From the NCBI RefSeq assembly GCF_029338255.1, contig NZ_CP119787.1, forward strand, positions 3,115,631-3,179,630: a stretch of DNA of 64,000 bases, read 5' to 3'. The position numbers were made by a program, and so were the translations under genes. The notes under the pieces were generated by a model, which worked only from the letters and a program-made list of their open reading frames with translations, made no database searches and was not told where the DNA came from. The first letter of the stretch is position 1; every line of letters starts with the position of its first letter. This document shows positions 9,471 to 22,224 of this stretch, one piece after another. The stretch comes from Haloarcula halobia (GTDB lineage Archaea; Halobacteriota; Halobacteria; Halobacteriales; Haloarculaceae).

Positions 9471-9812
9471 ATGACCGAGGCCGACGACACCGTCGACCCA
9501 AGCGAGTTCGGCGAACAGGACGCCCCGCCCGTCGAGGCAAAGCCCTACAAGATCATCTTCGAGGCCAACAAGTGCTTCGGCGCCGGGAAGTGCGCCGAGG
9601 TCTCGCGGAACTGGAACCTCGACCTCGACACCGGCATCGCAACCCCGCGGGCCTACTTCATCGGCGAGGAGGACCTGGACCACAACGTCGCGGCCGCAGA
9701 GGCCTGCCCCGCGAAGAAGGGACGTGGCATCATCCACGTCGTCGACCGCCGAACGAACGAGGAGGTCGCGCCCGACCCCCACGGCGACGGCACCCTCTCG
9801 GTCGACTGGTAA
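9471..9812 (+). CDS. 3Fe-4S-type ferredoxin
   Basis: This is a 113-residue acidic protein. Its KIIFEANKCFGAGKCAEV segment has Cys-x5-Cys, and a third cysteine sits in AACP-type context (EACPAKKGRGIIHVV). Three cluster cysteines with that spacing and no fourth fit a single [3Fe-4S] ferredoxin of the type paired with P450 or other oxidoreductases. The N-terminal 25 residues are an acidic haloarchaeal extension. The redox partner is unknown, and the hydrogenase operon begins 2.7 kb downstream with an unrelated promoter. The gene lies 40 bases before the tRNA gene. Confidence 0.8.
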   Translation: MTEADDTVDPSEFGEQDAPPVEAKPYKIIFEANKCFGAGKCAEVSRNWNLDLDTGIATPRAYFIGEEDLDHNVAAAEACPAKKGRGIIHVVDRRTNEEVAPDPHGDGTLSVDW

Positions 9813-11397: not shown

Positions 11398-11677
11398 CCG
11401 AGTGGTCGATTCCCACGCACGGTTCGGGAGCCGTCGTCGCGACTCCCCGGTCGTAAAGCGAGCCCAGCTCGGCGCCGGTGTCGGGTCGCCCTCGGTCGGA
11501 CCGGGACGCTCGCCCGGGGCTGGTGCCAGCTGGTCACGAGACCCCGTTGCTGTGCCGACGACGGGTGGCGGGCGGGCGACGGCGTGGGGTCTCCGCGGGG
11601 TCCGAATCGTGGCGACCCGGGTACCTCGACCGGCAAAAGCGGTTTTTCCGAGCAGTGCTATTGGTCGGTACGAGCGC

Positions 11678-12346
11678 ATGCCCGGTGTCCGCGCGGAACT
11701 CGCCTTCGACGACCCGACCGGTTGTCCAGTCGCCGACCTCACCGACGGGCAGGGGGGCACGGCCCGGTCCGTGACCTGGAGTGACGGCGACAGGACCGTC
11801 ACCGAGCAGTTCGAGTACGACGGGGACGTCGACGCCTCGAGCGGGAGCGAGACAGCGCCCGAGGGCGACGTGAACCGGGTGTTCGACTACGACGACGCAG
11901 CAGTCTACGAGCTGGAGCGAGAGAGCGAGGACTGCGTCTGTCAGACCATCGCCGAGTTCGACTGTCCGCTGTCGGACGTCGATGTCGCCGACGGCACGCT
12001 CTACGTGAGCCTCCACCTGCGGGACGCCACCGAACTCAGGGCGTTGCTCGAGCGACTGCGGGGGGCGTACGACGACGTCCGGGTCCGCTATCTGGTGCAG
12101 TCCGGCGACGGTGACAGCAGCGGCGACGTCGTCCCCGTCGACCGGGACCGACTCACCGACCGTCAGCGCGAGGCGGTCGCCACGGCCTACCGGATGGGCT
12201 ACTTCGATTACCCCAGGCAGTCGAACGCGTCCGAGGTGGCCGAGGCACTCGACATCGCCCCGTCGACGTTCACTGAACACCTCACGGCGGCCCAGTCAGA
12301 GCTGCTCCGCGCGGTGCTCGACGACGACAGCCCGGGGCCGCGGTAA
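11678..12346 (+). CDS. Bat-type helix-turn-helix transcription regulator
   Basis: The 222-residue protein has an N-terminal region of two beta-rich halves without obvious PAS or GAF signatures (residues 1-150, with CVCQTIAEFDC in the middle). A C-terminal bacterio-opsin-activator HTH_10 domain follows: LTDRQREAVATAYRMGYFDYP, given in part as LTDRQREAVATAY, then ASEVAEALDIAPSTFTEHL. These regulators respond to oxygen, light or redox in haloarchaea. It is the last gene before the hydrogenase operon, on the same strand, 209 bases from the small-subunit ATG, so it is a good candidate for that operon's regulator. It could also act on the rhodopsin genes further along. Confidence 0.85.
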   Translation: MPGVRAELAFDDPTGCPVADLTDGQGGTARSVTWSDGDRTVTEQFEYDGDVDASSGSETAPEGDVNRVFDYDDAAVYELERESEDCVCQTIAEFDCPLSDVDVADGTLYVSLHLRDATELRALLERLRGAYDDVRVRYLVQSGDGDSSGDVVPVDRDRLTDRQREAVATAYRMGYFDYPRQSNASEVAEALDIAPSTFTEHLTAAQSELLRAVLDDDSPGPR

Positions 12347-12443: not shown

Positions 12444-12469
12444 TTATAAAGACCCCTGGAACCGGGGTC
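12444..12469 (+). promoter_or_regulatory. hydrogenase operon promoter with palindromic operator
   Basis: A clear TATA box, ttataaa (12444-12450), is followed directly by the inverted repeat GACCCC-n7-GGGGTC (12451-12469), between the TATA box and the expected transcription start near 12473. A protein bound there would block or gate the start. The implied leader before the ATG at 12556 is about 80 bases. The TATA position also shows that the longer open frame beginning near 12397 is not the true gene start. Confidence 0.5.
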
Positions 12470-12555: not shown

Positions 12556-13836
12556 ATGGCGACCAGAACCCCGACCACGGACGATGCAGGCCCGCGAGTC
12601 GACCGGCGACCGGACTTCCTCGAGCTCTGTCACCACAACGACGGAGGCGACGTCGTCGAACAGTACGCCGCCGACATCCGGGCGTCGCTCTCGACGGTGA
12701 CGACCGGTGCGATCGACGTCGCCTGGGTGCAGGGACAGAGCTGTACCGGGTGCACCATGTCGATGCTGCAAAACGAGTTCCCCGCCATCGAGGGGGTGCT
12801 CAGCGAGTTCCGCGAGACGGTCAGTTTCCACCCCACGCTGATGGACGAGGCCGGCGAGACGGCGATGGGTTCACTCGGGGCCGGTCCGGACGTCCTCGTG
12901 GTCGAGGGCGCGGTTCCCGTCGAGATACCGCGGGCGGCCACGCTCGGCCGCGACGAGCGAGGGAACCCGAAACCGCTCGTGGACTGGGTGATAGAGCTCG
13001 GTGAGGCCGCGGACCTCGTCATCGCCGTCGGGAGCTGTGCCGCCTACGGCGGGCTGCCCGCGGCCGGTCGACACGACAGCGACGATGTCGGCGCGGACCC
13101 GACCGGCGCGCGCGGCCTCCAGTTCGACGGCAGGGACCCCGGTGGCGTCTTCGGTCCGGCCTTCCGGACCGGGCGGGACCTGCCCGTCGTCAACGTCCCC
13201 GGCTGTCCGGCCCACCCCGAACACGTCCTACTCACCCTCGCGACCGTGTTGCACGGCCACGACCCGGTCCTCGATGAGTTCAACCGGCCGCTCCCGATAT
13301 TCGGCCCGCTCGTCCACGACGACTGCTCCCTGCGCGAGGAGTACGAGAGCGGCAACTTCGCCGACCATCCCGGCGACGACGGCTGCCTCTACGAGGCAGG
13401 CTGTGCCGGCGTCTACGCGTACTGTGACGACTCCAAGCGGCTGCGAAACGGCGGGACGACCATCTGCCGTGACGTCGGCGCACCCTGCATCGGATGCGTC
13501 GAGCCGGCGTTCTGGGACCGGTTCACCCCGTTCTACGAACCGGGGCTCGACCGGGGAGACGCAGGCCGTGACGGCCACTCGAAGCGTGACTACCGCGACG
13601 CCGCCGCCGACCCCGACGAGACCACCGGCGTCCGCGAGGCTGTCGCGGACGCGAGTCCGGTGACGAACCCCGTCGGGGCCCTCATCGGAGCGGTGGTGAG
13701 TCTCCTCCTGGTACCGCTGTTGCCCGGTGCCGCGGCCGCCGCCGCCCTCGTTCGCTGGCTCGACATCTGTCAGCGGCGTCCCGAGGGCCCGGTCGCGCTG
13801 ACCGGGCCCGACGACAGAGCAACGCGCGATAGCTGA
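12556..13836 (+). CDS. [NiFe] hydrogenase small subunit (group 1-like)
   Basis: The 426-residue protein carries the electron-transfer clusters. The proximal motif is SCTGCTMS (Cys63, Cys66), followed by DVLVVEGAVP, VGSCAAYGG and NVPGCPAHPE. The distal and medial cluster region has HDDC, GCLYEAGC, then YCDDS, TIC and APCIGCVEPAFWD, the order found in group 1 uptake enzymes. The proximal motif is CTGC, not the cysteine-rich form of O2-tolerant membrane enzymes. RRPDFLEL (residues 17-24) resembles a Tat motif, but no hydrophobic stretch follows, so export is doubtful. A C-terminal helix (NPVGALIGAVVSLLLVPLLP) probably anchors it to the membrane. It is the first gene of the operon; the large subunit starts six bases after its stop. 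Confidence 0.93.
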   Translation: MATRTPTTDDAGPRVDRRPDFLELCHHNDGGDVVEQYAADIRASLSTVTTGAIDVAWVQGQSCTGCTMSMLQNEFPAIEGVLSEFRETVSFHPTLMDEAGETAMGSLGAGPDVLVVEGAVPVEIPRAATLGRDERGNPKPLVDWVIELGEAADLVIAVGSCAAYGGLPAAGRHDSDDVGADPTGARGLQFDGRDPGGVFGPAFRTGRDLPVVNVPGCPAHPEHVLLTLATVLHGHDPVLDEFNRPLPIFGPLVHDDCSLREEYESGNFADHPGDDGCLYEAGCAGVYAYCDDSKRLRNGGTTICRDVGAPCIGCVEPAFWDRFTPFYEPGLDRGDAGRDGHSKRDYRDAAADPDETTGVREAVADASPVTNPVGALIGAVVSLLLVPLLPGAAAAAALVRWLDICQRRPEGPVALTGPDDRATRDS

Positions 13837-13842
13837 CAGACA

Positions 13843-15387
13843 ATGCCCGAGATAGAGATCGACCCCACGACCCGCATCGAGGGCCACCACTCGACGACGC
13901 TGCACGTCGAGGACGGCCACGTCGTTCGAGCAGAGAGCGAGATGAACATGTTCCGCGGCGTCGAGTCCATCACCCTCGGTCGGCAGCCGTCGGACGTCCC
14001 GCAGGTGACCCAGATGGTCTGTGGCGTCTGTTTCACGTGCCACCGACAGGCCTCCATCCTGGCCATGGAAGACGCCGCCGGGCGGGCCGGCGTGTTCGAC
14101 GGCGTGCCGCCCAACGGCCGGCTGCTCCGGGACATCATGGAGGGGATGTTCCTCCTGTGGAACCACGCCGTCCACCTGTTCGTCCTCGCCGGACCGGACT
14201 ACTCGAACGCGGTCGCGGACACCGGCTTCGACCGGCTCGACCCGGTCGACGGAGCGGGGTACCAGGACGCGCTGGCCCACCAGCGTGACCTCCTCCAGGC
14301 CTTCACGGAGTTCGGTGGGCGGGCGCCGCACCCGCTCACGTACGCACCCGGCGGCGTGACCGCCGACCCCGACCCGGAGACGCTTGCGGAGATTCGCGAG
14401 ACCGTCGCGGCCATAGACGAGTGGCTCGGGCCGACCGACGCGGTTCCGGAGCTGGTCGAGCGGGCGCGCGACGACGAACGCGGCGAGCCGACCGACGGCG
14501 GTGCCGGCGGCTACGACCTCTGTTCGATACTCGTCGCCGCCGCCGAGGCCGGCGCCGCCGACTTCGGCGTCGGGCCGGGCCGCTTCTACGCCAACGGGAT
14601 GTTCTTCGGGCCGGGCGGGAGCGCCGACGACCCGGCCGAGTCGCTGGTGTTCCCACGCGGCATCTACGAGGACGGCAACCTCCGACGGCCGACGCGGACC
14701 GACCTCGTCGAGGGCATCACCGAGGACGTCGGCCACGCGTGGTACACGGACGCGTCGGGCGGTCGGCCCGCGGAGGCGCCCGCACCTGACCCCGACCCCG
14801 AGAAGGCGGGTGCCTACTCGTGGGGAAAGGCCCCGAAGTACCGCGGGCGGACGATGGAGACCGGACCGCTGGCGCGACTCGTCGCCGCCGAGCGCGACCC
14901 GGCCGACCTCCGGGCGACGCTCGGCAACGGCGCGGCCGCCAGTAGCACGTTCAACCGGCTGGCCGCTCGCGTCCAAGAGACGCTGCTGGTCCGCGACCGC
15001 CTCGTCGAGTGGCTGGACGCCGTCGACCCCGACGCCCCGACGAAGGCCGAGTGGACCGACGACTTCAGCGGCGCCGGCGTCGGCTTCTGGGGCGCCTCGC
15101 GCGGGGCGCTTTCCCACTGGGTCCAGGTCGACAGCGGTACGGTCAACCAGTACCAGATCGTCACGCCGACGACCTGGAACCTCGGCCCGCGTGACGACGA
15201 CGGTGTTCCCGGCGTCTTCGAGTCGGCCGTCGAGGGGATGGCGGTCCCCGACGTCTCGGACCCGACCGACGTGATGCGTACCGTCCGGTCGTTCGACCCC
15301 TGTCTGGGGTGTGCGGTCCACGTCGAGAGCCCCGAGGGGCGCTTCGAGACCGAAGTCGAACCACACGCGCCCGGAGGGGGCCGGTGA
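13843..15387 (+). CDS. [NiFe] hydrogenase large (catalytic) subunit
   Basis: The 514-residue catalytic subunit begins PEIEIDPTTRIEGHHS, containing the conserved TRIEGH. The L1 motif is MVCGVCFTCH (Cys60, Cys63, His67) and L2 is DPCLGCAVH (Cys487, Cys490, His493), giving the four Ni-Fe cysteine ligands. Twenty-one residues follow His493, the cleavable tail removed by a maturation protease after metal insertion. In L1 the usual Arg-Ile before the first cysteine is Met-Val and there is an extra cysteine (Cys66). The region of about residues 170-240 carries acidic inserts. It lies six bases after the small subunit, and its stop overlaps the protease start (GTGA). Confidence 0.93.
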   Translation: MPEIEIDPTTRIEGHHSTTLHVEDGHVVRAESEMNMFRGVESITLGRQPSDVPQVTQMVCGVCFTCHRQASILAMEDAAGRAGVFDGVPPNGRLLRDIMEGMFLLWNHAVHLFVLAGPDYSNAVADTGFDRLDPVDGAGYQDALAHQRDLLQAFTEFGGRAPHPLTYAPGGVTADPDPETLAEIRETVAAIDEWLGPTDAVPELVERARDDERGEPTDGGAGGYDLCSILVAAAEAGAADFGVGPGRFYANGMFFGPGGSADDPAESLVFPRGIYEDGNLRRPTRTDLVEGITEDVGHAWYTDASGGRPAEAPAPDPDPEKAGAYSWGKAPKYRGRTMETGPLARLVAAERDPADLRATLGNGAAASSTFNRLAARVQETLLVRDRLVEWLDAVDPDAPTKAEWTDDFSGAGVGFWGASRGALSHWVQVDSGTVNQYQIVTPTTWNLGPRDDDGVPGVFESAVEGMAVPDVSDPTDVMRTVRSFDPCLGCAVHVESPEGRFETEVEPHAPGGGR

Positions 15388-16142
15388 CCGGCGCCCACGA
15401 CGCCGTGGCCATCGTCGGGGTCGGCAACCCGACGATGGGCGACGATGGCCTGGGGCGCGCGGTGCTCGACCGCCTCGTCGCCGACGCCGATGTGGTGGGG
15501 GCCGGAGGCGGACAGGACGGGCCCGTTCGAGCGGCCTTCGCCGGGACGACCGGGTTCTTCGCGCTCGAGGCGATGGACGGCGTCGACCGGGCAGTCGTCG
15601 TCGACGCCGTCGACGCGGACGGGCCACCCGGGACGGTCCACCGGGTCCGACTGGACCGGCCCCGCGCTGGGTCCGGGGCGGCCGGCGGCGACCCGGCGCT
15701 CACCGGCGGCGTCCCGGAGGTGACGCTGCACGACATCACCTTCCGCGACGCGCTCCGAACCTGTCGGTCGGCGTACGACCTCCCCGACTGGGTGGTCCTC
15801 GTCGGGGTGGTGCCGGCGGTGGTCGAGGGCGGGATCGGACTCAGCGACCCGGTGACGGCAGCGGTACCGACGGCGGCGGCCGCCGTCCGGGCCGAACTGG
15901 ACCGGCGGCCGCGACACGGGACCGACGGAGGTGACCCGAGCATGGACACGACCTGGTACTGTCACGACTGCGACAGACGGATCGACTCGGCGGCGGTCGA
16001 CGAACACGAGGCCCGAGGCCACAGCGTCAGGGGTCGGCTTCGGCCCGACCGCTTGCTCGCACAGGACCCCTGGGAGACGGACGGCACGCTGGACGAGGAC
16101 GGCGAATCGGGCCCGGACGACGCGTCGGAGGTGACCGAGTGA
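15384..16142 (+). CDS. hydrogenase maturation protease (HyaD/HycI family) continuous with a zinc-finger-like tail
   Basis: The start is the GTG at 15384, inside the large-subunit stop, with GGAGGGG just upstream. Residues 1-180 are the endopeptidase that trims the large-subunit tail: VGVGNPTMGDDGLGRAV with the conserved nickel-binding Asp, then VVVDAVDADGPPGTV and VVLVGVVP. In place of a stop the frame runs on into 66 residues with C-x2-C-x11-H-x4-H spacing (YCHDCDRRIDSAAVDEHEARGH) and an acidic end. Normal HyaD/HycI proteins are 150-200 residues, so this is either a real fusion or two genes without a separating stop. The TGA overlaps the hypC ATG by one base. Confidence 0.85.
   Translation: MTGAHDAVAIVGVGNPTMGDDGLGRAVLDRLVADADVVGAGGGQDGPVRAAFAGTTGFFALEAMDGVDRAVVVDAVDADGPPGTVHRVRLDRPRAGSGAAGGDPALTGGVPEVTLHDITFRDALRTCRSAYDLPDWVVLVGVVPAVVEGGIGLSDPVTAAVPTAAAAVRAELDRRPRHGTDGGDPSMDTTWYCHDCDRRIDSAAVDEHEARGHSVRGRLRPDRLLAQDPWETDGTLDEDGESGPDDASEVTE
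15927..15934 (+). promoter_or_regulatory. ribosome binding site inside the protease frame
   Basis: GGAGGTGA lies seven bases before an in-frame ATG at 15942. The same octamer with the same spacing precedes hypC (16127-16134, ATG 16142). It complements the haloarchaeal 16S rRNA end fully, so internal initiation is plausible. Confidence 0.55.
15942..16142 (+). CDS. possible separate small zinc-finger protein made by internal initiation
   Basis: Starting at the ATG at 15942, the same frame as the protease would give a 66-residue acidic protein. It has a Cys2His2-like segment (YCHDCD, then DEHEARGHSVRG), RLRPDRLLAQDPWE and a Glu/Asp-rich end. A perfect ribosome binding site precedes it. Small zinc-finger proteins of this look may be free-standing elsewhere, in which case the protease has lost its stop. 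The role is unknown; metal handling during hydrogenase assembly is a guess from context. Confidence 0.4.
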   Translation: MDTTWYCHDCDRRIDSAAVDEHEARGHSVRGRLRPDRLLAQDPWETDGTLDEDGESGPDDASEVTE

Positions 16143-16387
16143 TGTGTCTCGGCATCCCCGGCGAGGTGCTCGAGATCGACGGCGATGAGGCCCGCGCGGC
16201 GTTTCGCGGCGCCGAAAAGTGGGTCCGAATCGACGTCGTCGGCGACGACCTCTCCGTCGGCGACTACGTGCTCAACCACGCCGGCTTCGCGATTCGGAAG
16301 ATTCCCGAAGAGCAGGTCGAACGGACGGTCGAACTGTACGAACAGGCCGCCGCGGGCGACACCGGACGGGGTGAGGTCAGTGACTGA
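16142..16387 (+). CDS. hypC: hydrogenase maturation factor HypC
   Basis: This is an 81-residue chaperone beginning MCLGIPGEVLEI. Cys2 becomes N-terminal after Met removal and holds the Fe(CN)2CO unit on its way from HypD to the large subunit. The start is the ATG at 16142, not the GTG one codon earlier, because Cys2 must follow the initiator and GGAGGTGA is seven bases upstream. The ATG overlaps the preceding TGA by one base, and the gene overlaps hypD by eight bases. Confidence 0.95.
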   Translation: MCLGIPGEVLEIDGDEARAAFRGAEKWVRIDVVGDDLSVGDYVLNHAGFAIRKIPEEQVERTVELYEQAAAGDTGRGEVSD

Positions 16388-17471
16388 AGCGCTGGAGTTT
16401 CGCGACCCCGAGCGAGCGACGGAACTGACGGACCGTCTCCGGGCGCTCGTCGACGGCGTCGACCGGCACCTCCGCGTGATGCACGTCTGTGGGTCACACG
16501 AGGAGGCCATCGCGGAGTTCGGGCTCCGGAGCGTCCTGCCGGACGGCCTGACGGTGGCGATGGGACCGGGCTGTCCGGTCTGTGTCACCGACCTGCCGGA
16601 GGTCGACGAGGCGGTGGCGCTGGCCGAGACGGGCCACACCGTGGCCACCTACGGCGACATGGTCCGCGTGCCCGGCAGCGACGGGAGCCTCGCCGACGCC
16701 CGGTCGGCCGGGGCGGACGTCAGGACGGTCTACAGCGCCGCGGAAGCGGTCGACGTCGCGACGGAGACCGACGGCGAGGTGGTGTTCTTCGCGACCGGGT
16801 TCGAGACCACCGCCGCGCCGACAGCGACCGTGCTCCGGGACGGGCCGCCGGAGAACTTCTCGGTGCTGTCGGCCCACAAGTACGTCCCGCCGGCGATGGA
16901 CGTCGTGGCCGCTCACCCCGACACGCAGGTCGACGGGTTCCTCGCCGCCGGGCACGCCGCGACGATAACCGGCGTGGACGTCTTCGAGAGCGTCGTCGAG
17001 AACCACGGCCTGCCGGTCGTCGTCGGGGGGTTCGAACCGCTCGACATCCTCGCGGGGTTGGTCATCCTGGTCGAGGAAATCAGCGCGGGCGAGGCCTCGG
17101 TGACCAACGCGTACCCCCGGTGTGTCGACGACGCCGGCAACCGGGCTGCCCGCGAGGCGCTGTGGGAGGTCTTCGAGCGGGTCCCCGGCAAGTGGCGCGG
17201 CGTCGCGGAGGTGCCCGACGCAACGCTCGAGCTCCGGGAGTCGTACGCGGAGTACGACGCCCGCCGGCAGTTCGACATCGACCGCCCGACCGTCGACGAC
17301 CGGACGACCGAGTGCATCTGTGGCGACATCATGGGCGGTCGCGCCAGCCCGACCGACTGCGACCTGTTCGGGACGGCGTGTACGCCGACGGACCCCGTCG
17401 GCGCCTGCATGGTGAGCGACGAGGGGCCCTGCCACATCCAGCACGCCTACGGCGGGAGGCGACAGCCGTGA
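16380..17471 (+). CDS. hypD: hydrogenase maturation factor HypD
   Basis: The 363-residue iron-sulfur protein assembles the Fe(CN)2CO ligand set with HypC. Visible motifs are VMHVCGSHEEAI, MGPGCPVCVT, FATGFETTAAPTA, SAHKYVPPAM and the C-terminal cysteine set CICGDIMGGRASPTDCDLFG. The start is the GTG at 16380, reading VTEALEFRDPERA, inside the end of hypC. Its TGA overlaps the hypE GTG by three bases (GTGA). Length and motifs are normal for the family. Confidence 0.96.
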   Translation: MTEALEFRDPERATELTDRLRALVDGVDRHLRVMHVCGSHEEAIAEFGLRSVLPDGLTVAMGPGCPVCVTDLPEVDEAVALAETGHTVATYGDMVRVPGSDGSLADARSAGADVRTVYSAAEAVDVATETDGEVVFFATGFETTAAPTATVLRDGPPENFSVLSAHKYVPPAMDVVAAHPDTQVDGFLAAGHAATITGVDVFESVVENHGLPVVVGGFEPLDILAGLVILVEEISAGEASVTNAYPRCVDDAGNRAAREALWEVFERVPGKWRGVAEVPDATLELRESYAEYDARRQFDIDRPTVDDRTTECICGDIMGGRASPTDCDLFGTACTPTDPVGACMVSDEGPCHIQHAYGGRRQP

Positions 17472-18589
17472 CCAGGACCGAGGCCGAGCCCGACGCCGTG
17501 GAAGAAACCGGCGAGTCGGCGGGCGACGCAACCGTCACCGCCGCCCACGGGGCGGGCACCGAGCGCACCCGCGACCTGCTCGACGCCGTCGTGACCGACC
17601 GCTTTGGCGACCCGGCGACGGCCGACGTCGGGCTGGGGGCGCTCGACGACGGCGCGGTCGTCCCTGACAGTGCGGTCAGAGACGTGGACCCACCGGCGGC
17701 CGACGGCGACCGTTCCCCCGAGGGCTCGACCGTCGTCACGACCGACGCCCACGTCGTACACCCCCGGGAGTTTCCCGGCGGCGACCTCGGTCGCCTCGCG
17801 GTCTGTGGGACCGTCAACGACCTCGCGGCGATGGGCGCGACCGCCCCGCTCGCGCTGTCGAGCGCCCTCGTCGTCGAGGCCGGCACGCCGGTCGCGGCCG
17901 TCGACCGGCTGACGTCGTCGATGGCGGCGGCCTGCGAGGAGGCGGGCTGTCAGCTCCGCACCGGCGACACGAAGGTGATGGGAAGCGGGGACGTCGACGG
18001 CATCGTCGTCACGACCACCGGCGTCGGTCGGATCGAACGCGGCGCCGAACTGGCCGCCACCGGCGTCTCGCCCGGCGACGCGTTGCTCGTGACCGGCCCG
18101 GTCGGCGACCACGGCGTCGCCCTGCTGGCGGCCCGCGAGGGCTTCGAGTTCGCCTCTCCGCTCAGGAGCGACGTGCGACCCGTCAACGACCTGGTCGCCG
18201 CCGCCCGGGAAGCCGGCCGGGTGACCGCGGCGACGGACCCGACCCGAGGGGGGGTGGCGAACGCCGTCAACGAACTCGCCGCCGCCAGCGAGGTCGGACT
18301 GGTCCTCGACGAGCAGTCGATACCCGTCGCCGACGCGACCCGCGGCGCGGCCGAGGTGCTCGGCCTCGACCCGCTGACCGTCGCCTGCGAGGGGCGGATG
18401 GTGCTCGCAGTCGACGCCGCCGACGCCGACGCCGTCCGTGACCGGCTCAGAGAACTGCCCGGCGGTGAGAGGGCGGCGGTCGTCGGCCGTGCGGTCGACG
18501 ACCACCCCGGCGACGTCGTCCTCGACACCGGCTTCGGGGAGCGCTACCTCGACGTCCCGACCGGCGAACGGGTCCCCCGAATCTGTTGA
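17468..18589 (+). CDS. hypE: hydrogenase maturation factor HypE
   Basis: A 373-residue PurM/AIR-synthase-fold enzyme. It dehydrates the thiocarboxamide that HypF places on its C-terminal cysteine to thiocyanate, the source of the active-site CN ligands. The protein indeed ends PRIC. Other marks are VTAAHGAGTERTRDLL, LGALDDGAVV, VTTDAHVVHPREFPGGDLG and TDPTRGGVANAVNELA. The N-terminus has an acidic extension of about 25 residues. The start is the GTG at 17468, overlapping the hypD stop. Confidence 0.96.
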   Translation: MTRTEAEPDAVEETGESAGDATVTAAHGAGTERTRDLLDAVVTDRFGDPATADVGLGALDDGAVVPDSAVRDVDPPAADGDRSPEGSTVVTTDAHVVHPREFPGGDLGRLAVCGTVNDLAAMGATAPLALSSALVVEAGTPVAAVDRLTSSMAAACEEAGCQLRTGDTKVMGSGDVDGIVVTTTGVGRIERGAELAATGVSPGDALLVTGPVGDHGVALLAAREGFEFASPLRSDVRPVNDLVAAAREAGRVTAATDPTRGGVANAVNELAAASEVGLVLDEQSIPVADATRGAAEVLGLDPLTVACEGRMVLAVDAADADAVRDRLRELPGGERAAVVGRAVDDHPGDVVLDTGFGERYLDVPTGERVPRIC

Positions 18590-18592
18590 ACC

Positions 18593-18994
18593 ATGCACGA
18601 ACTCGCCATCGCGGACCGGCTGCTCGACCGCGCCGTATCGGCCGCTCGCGACGCCGGCGCGGAGCGGGTCGACGGACTGACAGTCGAACTCGGTACCGCG
18701 ACGCACCTCGTCCCCGAACAGGTGGCGTTCTGCCTCGACGCGGTCGCCGAGGACACCCCCGCGGAGGGTGCCACAGTCACCTTCGAGCGCGTGTCGGCCC
18801 GTGGCGAGTGTTCGTGCGGGTGGCACGGCGAGCTGGAGACGCTCGCCGAGACGGTCGCCGGGGTCCCGGACAGGCGCTGTCCGGACTGCGGAGCCGAGGT
18901 CGAACTCACCGCCGGGCGCGAGTGCCGGCTGAAGACCGTCGAGATTCCCGAGGCACCGACCACTCGAAAGACCGACCAGACGGACCAGACGTGA
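18593..18994 (+). CDS. hypA: hydrogenase nickel insertion protein HypA
   Basis: The 133-residue protein starts MHELAIADRLLD. His2 with the amino terminus binds nickel. The zinc site is formed by CSCGW (residues about 73-77) and RRCPDCG (about 97-103), two cysteine pairs as in other HypA proteins. The C-terminal 20 residues are a Thr/Asp-rich tail. It follows hypE by three bases and precedes hypB by 13, and it works with HypB to deliver nickel to the large subunit. Confidence 0.95.
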   Translation: MHELAIADRLLDRAVSAARDAGAERVDGLTVELGTATHLVPEQVAFCLDAVAEDTPAEGATVTFERVSARGECSCGWHGELETLAETVAGVPDRRCPDCGAEVELTAGRECRLKTVEIPEAPTTRKTDQTDQT

Positions 18995-19007: not shown

Positions 19008-19847
19008 ATGACCTACCACGCAACCCACGACGTCGACCGACTCCTCGCATCGCTCGCTCGAACGATAACGCGCCTGCAACCCCGCCAGCCGCTCCCTCCA
19101 GACCGCCGCCGTGGGCCACTCCGGACGCACCGCTTCGGGCACGAGAGCGACCCCGAGGCAGGTGGTAGCGGTGACACCGCCGAGGCCGACGTCCTCGCTG
19201 CGGTCCGCGAGACGGCCGGCGACGTCCACGAGCGACTCGGGCACGACCACGACGTCTTCGCCGTCGAGCTGCTCGGCGCGACCGGCGCCGGGAAGACGGC
19301 CCTGCTCGAGTCGTTGCTGGGGGACGAGGGGCCGACGCCGTTCGCCGGCGAACGCGTCGGGGTCGTCACCGGCGACGTGGCCGGCACCGACGACGCCGAC
19401 CGCCTGCGGGCCCTCGACGTCCCCGTGGTGAACGTGACGACCGGGCGGGACTGTCACCTCGACCCGGAGCGCGTCGACAGCGCACTGGACGACTTCGACC
19501 TCGACCGTCTCGACGTGCTGGTCGTCGAGAACGTCGGCAACATGGTCTGCCCGGCCGACTTCCCGCTCGGGACCGACGTCCGCGCCGTCGTCGTCAGCCC
19601 CACCGAGGGGGACGACGTCGTCCGGAAACATCCGCTGTTGTTCCAGGTCTGTGACGTCGCGGTCCTCAACAAGGGAGACGTCGCCGCCGCCGTCGGGGCC
19701 GACGTACAGCGGATGGCCGACGACGTCGACCACGTCGCTCCCGAGACCCCGGTCGTCCGGACCAGCGCCGAGACGGGCGCGGGCATCGACGAACTGTCGG
19801 CGTGGCTCGTCGACCGACGCCGCGAGCGAGTCCACTCCCATGGCTGA
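19008..19847 (+). CDS. hypB: hydrogenase nickel insertion GTPase HypB
   Basis: This is a 279-residue SIMIBI GTPase with the P-loop ELLGATGAGKTALLES, GVVTGDVAGTDDADR, the GRDCHLDPERV metal-site cysteine and histidine, VVENVGNMVCPADFPLG and the base-recognition motif LNKGD (commonly NKxD). The N-terminal 60 residues are a basic, histidine-poor extension rather than a nickel-storing His-rich tract. The ATG at 19008 follows hypA closely, and the end overlaps hypF by eight bases. Confidence 0.94.
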   Translation: MTYHATHDVDRLLASLARTITRLQPRQPLPPDRRRGPLRTHRFGHESDPEAGGSGDTAEADVLAAVRETAGDVHERLGHDHDVFAVELLGATGAGKTALLESLLGDEGPTPFAGERVGVVTGDVAGTDDADRLRALDVPVVNVTTGRDCHLDPERVDSALDDFDLDRLDVLVVENVGNMVCPADFPLGTDVRAVVVSPTEGDDVVRKHPLLFQVCDVAVLNKGDVAAAVGADVQRMADDVDHVAPETPVVRTSAETGAGIDELSAWLVDRRRERVHSHG

Positions 19848-22224
19848 ACGCGCCGACCGTCGGGCGGACGCGGCCGAACCGGATCGCGACGAAGGTCCCG
19901 CGAGCGAGGGCGAGTCCGACGGCGCCCGTGACGCCGACGCCGGTCCCAGCGCCGTCGCGGTGGGGGTGACCGGGACGGTCCAGGGCGTCGGCTTTCGCCC
20001 GTTCGTCGCCCGGACGGCCGGGGAACACGGGGTGGCCGGCAGGGTGAAAAATGCCGACGACGGGGTCCGGATCGTCTTCGAGGGAGCGCCCGGAGCGGTC
20101 GAGGAAGCCGTCGAGACGGTCCGGACGGACCCACCGCCGCTCGCGACCGTCGACGACGTGACGGTCGCCGACTGTGACCCGGCCGGCCACGAGCAGTTCG
20201 AGATCGTCCCGTCGACGGCCGCCGGAGAGCGGGCGACGCTCGTCCCGCCGGACACCGGGATCTGTGCCGACTGCCGGGCGGACATCCGCGCCCCGGACTC
20301 CCGGTACCACGGTTACTGGGCGACAGCCTGCGTGAACTGTGGCCCGCGCTTTGCCATCACCGAGGGTCTGCCGTACGACCGCAAGCGGACCGCGATGAGT
20401 GACTTTCGACGCTGCCCGGACTGCCAGGCCGCCTACGAGTCCCCGACCGACAGGCGGTTCCACGCACAGACCGTCGCCTGTCCGGCGTGTGGACCGACGC
20501 TGACGCTGGTCGACGGCGACGGAACCGACCTGACTGCCGGGACGGCGGCGCTGTCACACCTCGCCGACCGCCTCGCGGAGGGCGAAGTTGCCGGACTCAA
20601 AGGCGCCGGCGGGTGCCACCTGTGCTGTCGCGCGACCGACGCCGACGCCGTCGGGTGTCTCCGCGAGCGGACCGGCCGCGACGAAAAGCCCTTCGCCGTC
20701 ATGGCCCCGTCCGTGGAACGCGTCGAGGCGTTCGCCCGGGTCGACGCTGCCGAGCGCGAGTCCCTCACCGACGCGCGTCGCCCCATCGTCGTGCTGGACC
20801 GACGGACGCCGGCCGGCGACGACGCCCGCTGGCTAGAGGCCGTCGCCCCGGGACTGCACACCGTCGGCGTGATGCTGCCCTACAGCGGCGTCCACCACCT
20901 CCTGTTCGACCGGGTGACCGACCCGCTCGTGATGACGAGCGCCAACCGCCCTGGCGAGCCGATGTGTACCACCCGGACGGAGCTGCTCGACCTGTCGGCG
21001 GTCGACTGTGTGCTCGTCCACGACCGGGACGTGACCAACCGCTGTGACGACAGCGTCGTCCGCCACGTCGACGGCGACCGGCGCTTTCTCCGGCGCTCCC
21101 GTGGCTGGGTTCCCGACCCCCTTCCCCGACCCGTCGTCCCCGACCTGGAGGTGCTGGGCGCCGGCGGTCGGTCCGACGTCACCGTGGCCCTGACCGACGG
21201 CGACCGCGTGGTGCCCAGCCAGCACGTGGGGACGGTCACCGACCCGGCGACGGCACGCTTTCACCGCCGGGCGGCCGCGCACCTTTCGACGCTGCTCGAC
21301 GTGGACCCCGACGTCGTCGCCCACGACCTGCACCCGGAGTTCCGGACGAGGGCGGTCGCTGAAACGGTCGACGCCCGGTCCGTCGGGGTGTGGCACCACC
21401 ACGCGCACGCCGCCGCGTTGCTCGCCGAACACGACCGGTCCCGGGCGGTGGTAATCGCCGCGGACGGGACCGGATACGGCCCGGACGGTGTCGTCCGCGG
21501 CGGGGAGGTACTAGACAGTCGGCTCGCCCGGAGCGACCGGGTCGGCGGCCTCTCGGAGTTCCGACTCCCCGGCGGCGAGCGGGCGGTGCGCGAGCCGGCG
21601 CGGGTCCTCGCCGATCTCCTCGACGACGAGCGCCGCGTCACGGACCTGCTCGTCGAGCACGGTATCGTCGACGACCGGACGGCCGCGGCCACCATCCACC
21701 GGCAGGCGGCTCGCAAGCTGAACAGCCCGGTGACGACCAGTGCCGGGCGGTTCCTCGACGCGACCAGCGCGCTACTTGGGCTCTGTACGGAGCGGTCGTA
21801 CCGCGGACAGCCGGCGCGCAGGCTGGAAGCGGTCGCCGCCCGCGGCGACCCGCACGACGTCGACCCACCCGTCGACCGGACCGGTGTGGCACCCACCGTC
21901 CGGGCTGACCGCGCACTCGAGCATCTCGCGGCCCTGTCGGACCGACACGCGCCCGCCGACGTCGCCGCCACCGCACAGCGGCTTCTCGCCGACGGCCTCG
22001 CGGAGATTGCCGTGGACGCCGCGCAGCGCCGAGGGCTGCAAGCGGTGGGGTTCACCGGTGGCGTCGCGTACAACCCGGCCATCTCGGCCCGCATCCGGGA
22101 GGCCGTCACCGACGCTGGGCTGGCGTTCCTGGGCCACGCGGCGGTACCGCCCGGCGACGGCGGCCTCTCGTACGGACAGGCGGTGGCGGTCAGTGCTCGC
22201 GCCGAGCGGGGGGACCTCGAATAG
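19840..22224 (+). CDS. hypF: carbamoyltransferase HypF
   Basis: A 794-residue protein with the full HypF order. The acylphosphatase domain carries VTGTVQGVGFRPFVART (about residues 43-59). Two C4 zinc fingers follow (CADC/CVNC and CPDC/CPAC, about 140-225), with ACVNCGPRFAITEGLPYDR between them. The YrdC-like domain carries LKGAGGCHLCCRATD, and the C-terminal Kae1-like domain has HHHAHAAALLAEH, AADGTGYGPDG and GFTGGVAYNPAIS. It makes carbamoyl-adenylate and loads HypE. The first 40 residues are an acidic extension. It is the last gene of the operon. Confidence 0.96.
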   Translation: MAERADRRADAAEPDRDEGPASEGESDGARDADAGPSAVAVGVTGTVQGVGFRPFVARTAGEHGVAGRVKNADDGVRIVFEGAPGAVEEAVETVRTDPPPLATVDDVTVADCDPAGHEQFEIVPSTAAGERATLVPPDTGICADCRADIRAPDSRYHGYWATACVNCGPRFAITEGLPYDRKRTAMSDFRRCPDCQAAYESPTDRRFHAQTVACPACGPTLTLVDGDGTDLTAGTAALSHLADRLAEGEVAGLKGAGGCHLCCRATDADAVGCLRERTGRDEKPFAVMAPSVERVEAFARVDAAERESLTDARRPIVVLDRRTPAGDDARWLEAVAPGLHTVGVMLPYSGVHHLLFDRVTDPLVMTSANRPGEPMCTTRTELLDLSAVDCVLVHDRDVTNRCDDSVVRHVDGDRRFLRRSRGWVPDPLPRPVVPDLEVLGAGGRSDVTVALTDGDRVVPSQHVGTVTDPATARFHRRAAAHLSTLLDVDPDVVAHDLHPEFRTRAVAETVDARSVGVWHHHAHAAALLAEHDRSRAVVIAADGTGYGPDGVVRGGEVLDSRLARSDRVGGLSEFRLPGGERAVREPARVLADLLDDERRVTDLLVEHGIVDDRTAAATIHRQAARKLNSPVTTSAGRFLDATSALLGLCTERSYRGQPARRLEAVAARGDPHDVDPPVDRTGVAPTVRADRALEHLAALSDRHAPADVAATAQRLLADGLAEIAVDAAQRRGLQAVGFTGGVAYNPAISARIREAVTDAGLAFLGHAAVPPGDGGLSYGQAVAVSARAERGDLE

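Follow-up and report, generated by a model that had tools for sequence, protein, structure and literature searches.

A haloarchaeal [NiFe]-hydrogenase clade, derived from exported HydABC enzymes and predicted to face the cytoplasm

Hydrogenases of the kind analyzed here are normally exported across the cell membrane, and the membrane side of a respiratory hydrogenase decides whether H2 oxidation itself builds proton-motive force. In the cited sections of the descriptions of Halodesulfurarchaeum and natronoarchaea, haloarchaeal HydABC enzymes with the cytochrome b HydC are associated with anaerobic H2 oxidation (PMC5437934, PMC6176080), and the HydDB class 1a is given to haloarchaeal relatives (PMC6176080). 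The actinobacterial type of group 1h/5 (5aa5) is presented as having no Tat signal, as lying, by the accepted view, on the cytoplasmic side and as ending without a C-terminal helix (PMC5364354). A 2024 paper mentions that the HucM scaffold delivers quinone to HucS, that SUL1 of Acidianus is possibly part of a complex akin to succinate dehydrogenase, and that there are undescribed group 1 clades, some of them in Halobacteriota (PMC11018855).

Titles and the beginnings of abstracts in the open-access literature yielded no Tat-less haloarchaeal group 1a enzyme. We analyzed such a candidate in Haloarcula halobia, in a stretch of 64,000 nucleotides hereafter called the window. Comparison with its relatives suggests, with a probability of about 0.75, a two-subunit [NiFe] uptake hydrogenase that derives from HydABC and has turned to face the cytoplasm. 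The annotation "membrane-bound group 1a hydrogenase" can thus mislead on both the side and the electron acceptor of such an enzyme.

The operon, its relatives and their phylogeny

The window holds a complete hydrogenase operon on the + strand, with the small subunit, the large subunit, the maturation protease and the hyp genes up to position 22224. Its features are as follows:

11642..12346, + strand: DmsR-like HTH_10 regulator, directly upstream of the operon (family match)
12444..12449, + strand: TATA-like element TTATAA (pattern match only)
12556..13836, + strand: [NiFe]-hydrogenase small subunit, HydA-like, 426 aa, without Tat signal (family, PDB matches, alignment)
12604..12702, + strand: region of the former Tat signal (R17-T49), which has become polar, with predicted short helices
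13660..13761, + strand: hydrophobic C-terminal segment in its changed form (A369-V402), carrying P387 and P390 and no His
13843..15387, + strand: [NiFe]-hydrogenase large subunit, HydB-like, with DPCLGC at 485 and WGASRGAL, Gly 417
15384..16142, + strand: maturation protease of the HyaD/HycI type; a small zinc finger shares its frame (about 15942-16139)
16139..16387, + strand: HypC (family match)
16380..17471, + strand: HypD, start approximate (gene order and known features)
17462..18589, + strand: HypE, start approximate (gene order and known features)
18593..18994, + strand: HypA (family match)
19008..19847, + strand: HypB (family match)
19840..22224, + strand: HypF, start approximate (gene order and known features)

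HypD, HypE and HypF are putative names, given from gene order and known features. An earlier note on this DNA had placed the small subunit at 12556-13836; these coordinates (ATG at 12556, stop ending at 13836) were confirmed, as was the identity of the protein by matches to PF14720, PF01058, NCBIfam and PDB entries. The best PDB match of the small subunit was Huc (7utd, E 1.3e-42), followed by NiFeSe enzymes; the large subunit was nearest to NiFeSe and NiFe enzymes and less near to Huc. A search of the genome returned the 12556-13836 gene as its only PF14720 gene.

Among 391 sampled genomes of the class, 35 gave a match (38 matches), and six further genomes came from 146 searched within the family. 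The 42 loci classed, whose counts describe drawn samples and not prevalence, comprise 10 of the window's kind (B: the window, L036-L043 and L082), 23 Tat-bearing loci (A: L044-L062 and L083-L086), two truncated, Tat-bearing loci (D: L063 and L064) and seven group 1h-like loci (C: L066-L072), with L065 (G129) and G437 outside the count. The A small subunits are 50-56% identical to that of the window, and A and B occur together in three genomes. The protease and hypA-E are present at seven B loci, window included. The small zinc finger (WYCxDC...HExxGHxV..RPxRLLxxDPW) was detected by tblastn at 23/23 A loci and 7/10 B loci; in six of these seven it shares the reading frame of the maturation protease. 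The window copy (15942-16139) gave no Pfam match above the cut-off, and the finger may be a maturation factor that has escaped recognition. Three of the nine B loci examined (window, L037 and L038) have a gene from the cluster of the DmsR-like regulator, hinting at a control of the operon by anaerobiosis.

Trees of the small and the large subunit, which leave out 13 of the 25 outgroup loci, both recovered B as one clade (support 100/100 and 100/98; bootstrap 100%) nested in a paraphyletic A. Its sister is L044, which has both the Tat signal and the cytochrome (support of the joining branch 86/81 and 95/83). Both window subunits nest among haloarchaeal HydAB in their respective trees, and the large-subunit tree is independent of the altered small-subunit columns. 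Since the outgroup small subunits from the phylum mostly bear RR signals, the pattern is most simply read as a loss in B. This nested phylogeny offers a before-and-after pair of the exported and the predicted cytoplasm-facing form, and the three genomes with A and B allow the change of side and the loss of the cytochrome to be compared within one cell.

Tat signal, cytochrome b and C-terminal segment

The small subunit had been described as retaining only a relic of a Tat signal. R17-R18-P-D-F-L-E-L is indeed present, followed by a polar stretch in which uncharged runs reach at most three residues, and the region aligns with the Tat signals of the relatives. The idea of a relic does not extend to free decay, however, because D20, F21, L22, G31, V33, V34 and L45 are invariant across five aligned B members; the RR itself remains at this place in two of the 10 (window and L038). 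An RRNFL motif with an uncharged stretch was found in 23/23 A small subunits, including L085, whose row shows RRNFLKLVGTAAAG and in which automatic scoring had taken a later RR, and in 0/10 of B; the window protein thus lacks the signal of haloarchaeal HydABC (group 1a). Two weak AlphaFold models (mean pLDDT 50) place short helices at the former signal (block pLDDT 74-83, residues 21-50).

A missed upstream start restoring a normal signal peptide was checked and ruled out. The reading frame is open upstream of 12556 as far as 12277, with GTG 12397 as the first in-frame start and ATG 12415 as another. Both precede the TATA-like box at 12444 and are therefore unlikely to be used, and the extension from GTG 12397 to residue 49 contains no hydrophobic stretch (best 15-residue mean 0.23). 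Taken together, the hydropathy of the extension and the position of the box argue that no signal peptide is hidden upstream.

A cytochrome b gene (PF01292) adjoins the large-subunit gene at 23/23 A loci and at 0/10 B loci. The reported lack of cytochrome b in the operon was reproduced, and the window locus thereby departs from haloarchaeal HydABC (group 1a), where HydC is adjacent. A cytochrome b elsewhere in the genome was also ruled out, as searches with HydC and with PF01292 were both empty in this 99.97% complete assembly. HydC is absent from all seven B-only genomes, one of which, G391, is only 78% complete, and is present in the three genomes with both A and B. Gene calls and tblastn revealed no conserved partner gene beside the B loci and no dedicated electron-acceptor gene among the operon neighbours, and at the level of the operon no extra structural gene such as a HucM scaffold was seen.

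The C-terminal helix, said in the earlier note to be kept, persists as a strongly hydrophobic segment (KD19 2.24, residues 373-391), but in a changed form that is longer, far more hydrophobic, proline-bearing and devoid of His. The A tails form a weakly hydrophobic helix (KD19 0.87-1.71, His in 23/23, 0-1 Pro), and the nine B tails compared, L082 being left out because it is cut by a stop, gave KD19 values of 1.89-2.74 with His in 0/9 and 2-4 Pro, without overlap between the two hydropathy ranges. P387 and P390 are invariant in five aligned B members. A hairpin was considered for this proline-bearing tail and discarded, since both AlphaFold models (mean pLDDT 50) give, at low confidence, a single long helix of 31-35 residues (block pLDDT about 57-72), spanning residues 372-406 in one of them. 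In the Wolinella small subunit, a histidine of the C-terminal helix is reportedly needed for menaquinone reduction. The change in the B tail looks like a switch from a cytochrome-packed helix to a lipid-facing one. Positive-inside counts showed no inversion between A and B and were uninformative on topology.

As read from these alignments and trees, the B lineage is one that lost the Tat signal, the adjacent cytochrome and the helix His together. All these losses fall on one branch and therefore count as a single event, so that the association of the traits has no independent replicates. In clade D the cytochrome was lost and the Tat signal retained, so these traits can come apart. The clade D small subunits (L063:9180-10175 and L064:9260-10309) bear a Tat signal and lack the medial/distal Fe-S domain, which in L064 is replaced by a 51-base tandem repeat of 3.8 copies; the missing Fe-S motifs were absent from the other frames of the stretch around each locus, and no HydC homologue was found in either genome.

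Since the export tag, the cytochrome partner and a residue with a presumed role in electron transfer to it are all lost, the inner face of the membrane is the most likely site of action. A position on the cytoplasmic face had already been proposed, and it is supported, within the reach of sequence and comparison, by a Tat loss common to the whole of a clade nested in Tat-bearing relatives, more strongly than by the window sequence alone. Overall, the window hydrogenase is very likely located in the cytoplasm, and its tail probably anchors it.

A working enzyme and its possible electron acceptors

The preferred reading starts from an exported haloarchaeal HydABC enzyme that would have given rise to a cytoplasm-facing, two-subunit form. 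The mature dimer would stay in the cytoplasm, with the C-terminal hydrophobic segment as a tail anchor on the inner leaflet, and would oxidise H2 at the cytoplasmic side. From the distal cluster, electrons would then reach either menaquinone, directly at the surface of the membrane, or a carrier in the cytosol, and so enter respiration with none of the charge separation that belongs to the exported enzyme with its cytochrome.

The B enzymes keep the cluster-ligand cysteines and the TRIEGH, DPCLGC and SRGAL motifs. For three close pairs among L041-L043, dN/dS was 0.15-0.17 in the small and 0.12-0.16 in the large subunit; among the other large-subunit pairs, window/L036 (1 codon) was left out. 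Several changes separate the two groups. R-G-[YF]-[YF] follows the distal H..C in 23/23 A and 0/10 B sequences, and the loop after the distal ligands, RGYFDRGEF in A, has become R[EP].YE in 9/10 B members, the changed loop being acidic. A residue near the medial ligands is Trp in 23/23 A and Arg in 10/10 B sequences, and beside the SRG motif of the large subunit stands Gly in 10/10 B and, by the pattern used, Glu in 21/23 A sequences. At the usual Arg of R[IV]CGVC (large-subunit residues 58-67), Met is found in 10/10 B sequences; many of the A sequences displayed have Met, Lys or Thr there. Because the ligands and motifs are kept, dN/dS is low and A and B reside together in three genomes, B is most likely, on this sequence record, a functional enzyme whose role differs from that of A.

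Two variants of the cytoplasm-facing reading differ in the acceptor. Huc is not known to have a cytochrome b partner, and by a similar route the tail of the window enzyme could bring the distal cluster to the inner leaflet for a haem-free, direct reduction of menaquinone. We rate this at somewhat less than even odds. In its favour, no solved structure matched the small subunit better than Huc, whose HucM scaffold delivers quinone to HucS, and the B tail is strongly hydrophobic; against it, the operon showed no HucM-like gene, the large subunit is closer to NiFeSe/NiFe enzymes, and acidic residues mark the altered loop at the distal ligands. In the other variant, the acceptor would be ferredoxin or another soluble carrier protein of the cytosol, and the tail would do no more than hold the enzyme near the membrane. 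The same remodelled loop and the absence of a membrane partner gene from the locus favour this variant, which we would entertain with some doubt. The genome of the window also encodes a formate dehydrogenase alpha subunit, which makes soluble electron exchange plausible, and a NarG/DMSO-type II reductase (L112 and L113), both possible partners in H2 metabolism. However, the B loci have no conserved carrier gene next to them; a small protein encoded at 9471-9812, putatively ferredoxin-like by a motif, gave no family match in the searches of the window and does not recur at other B loci.

A decaying remnant, with signal and cytochrome gone and the enzyme on its way to loss, could account for the former signal and the tail evolving faster than other parts of the protein (in distant pairs, dN/dS reaches 0.65) and for the shortened L082, and clade D is a precedent for drastic truncation. 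It is nevertheless very improbable, as it is contradicted by purifying selection, by the presence of the exported version as well in three genomes, by the intact ligand cysteines and active-site motifs and by the operon retained at seven loci. Some Tat enzymes are exported together with a partner that bears the signal, and the tail could be a membrane helix in either topology, yet export by such a partner or by an unrecognised route, with the enzyme acting outside, is likewise very improbable, since in A the signal sits on the small subunit itself, the B large subunit begins at the conserved core without a leader and no gene for a signal-bearing partner was recognised in the operon.

Comparison with described hydrogenases

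In the fullest form of the preferred reading, the signal peptide would have become part of the folded core, the docking helix a lipid-facing anchor, and the bare dimer a menaquinone reductase that arose independently of Huc and group 1h; we propose this combination only tentatively and regard it as rather doubtful. Huc, of group 2a, is the closest PDB match of the window small subunit, and differs in relying on the HucM scaffold, for which no gene was recognised in the window operon.

The group 1h/5 enzymes resemble the window enzyme in having no Tat signal. They differ in being described without a C-terminal helix, where the window protein has a tail helix by hydropathy, and in their motifs, TSRICGICGDNH and SFDPCLPCGVH against QMVCGVCFTCH and SFDPCLGCAVH in the window (PMC5364354, in the part cited). 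The group 1h/5-like hydrogenases of haloarchaea (L066-L072, in seven genomes) have a distinct operon and form the separate clade C, apart from the window's clade; for the L071 protein, the best solved relative was 5aa5 (7e-109).

SUL1 of Acidianus, as far as its cited description goes, is like the window enzyme a lone large/small pair with no adjoining HydC-type cytochrome b gene, but its small subunit has been shortened until a single cluster is left, whereas that of the window retains all ligand motifs (PMC11018855). The truncated clade D proteins also invite comparison with SUL1. The likeness to the HydABC enzymes, in the sections cited, extends to the subunit sequences and to an operon with the protease and hyp genes; HydABC has HydC, and its A homologues have the Tat signal and the helix His, all three of which are missing from the window enzyme (PMC5437934, PMC6176080). 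With these A homologues, the window enzyme shares the four-cysteine medial ligand set.
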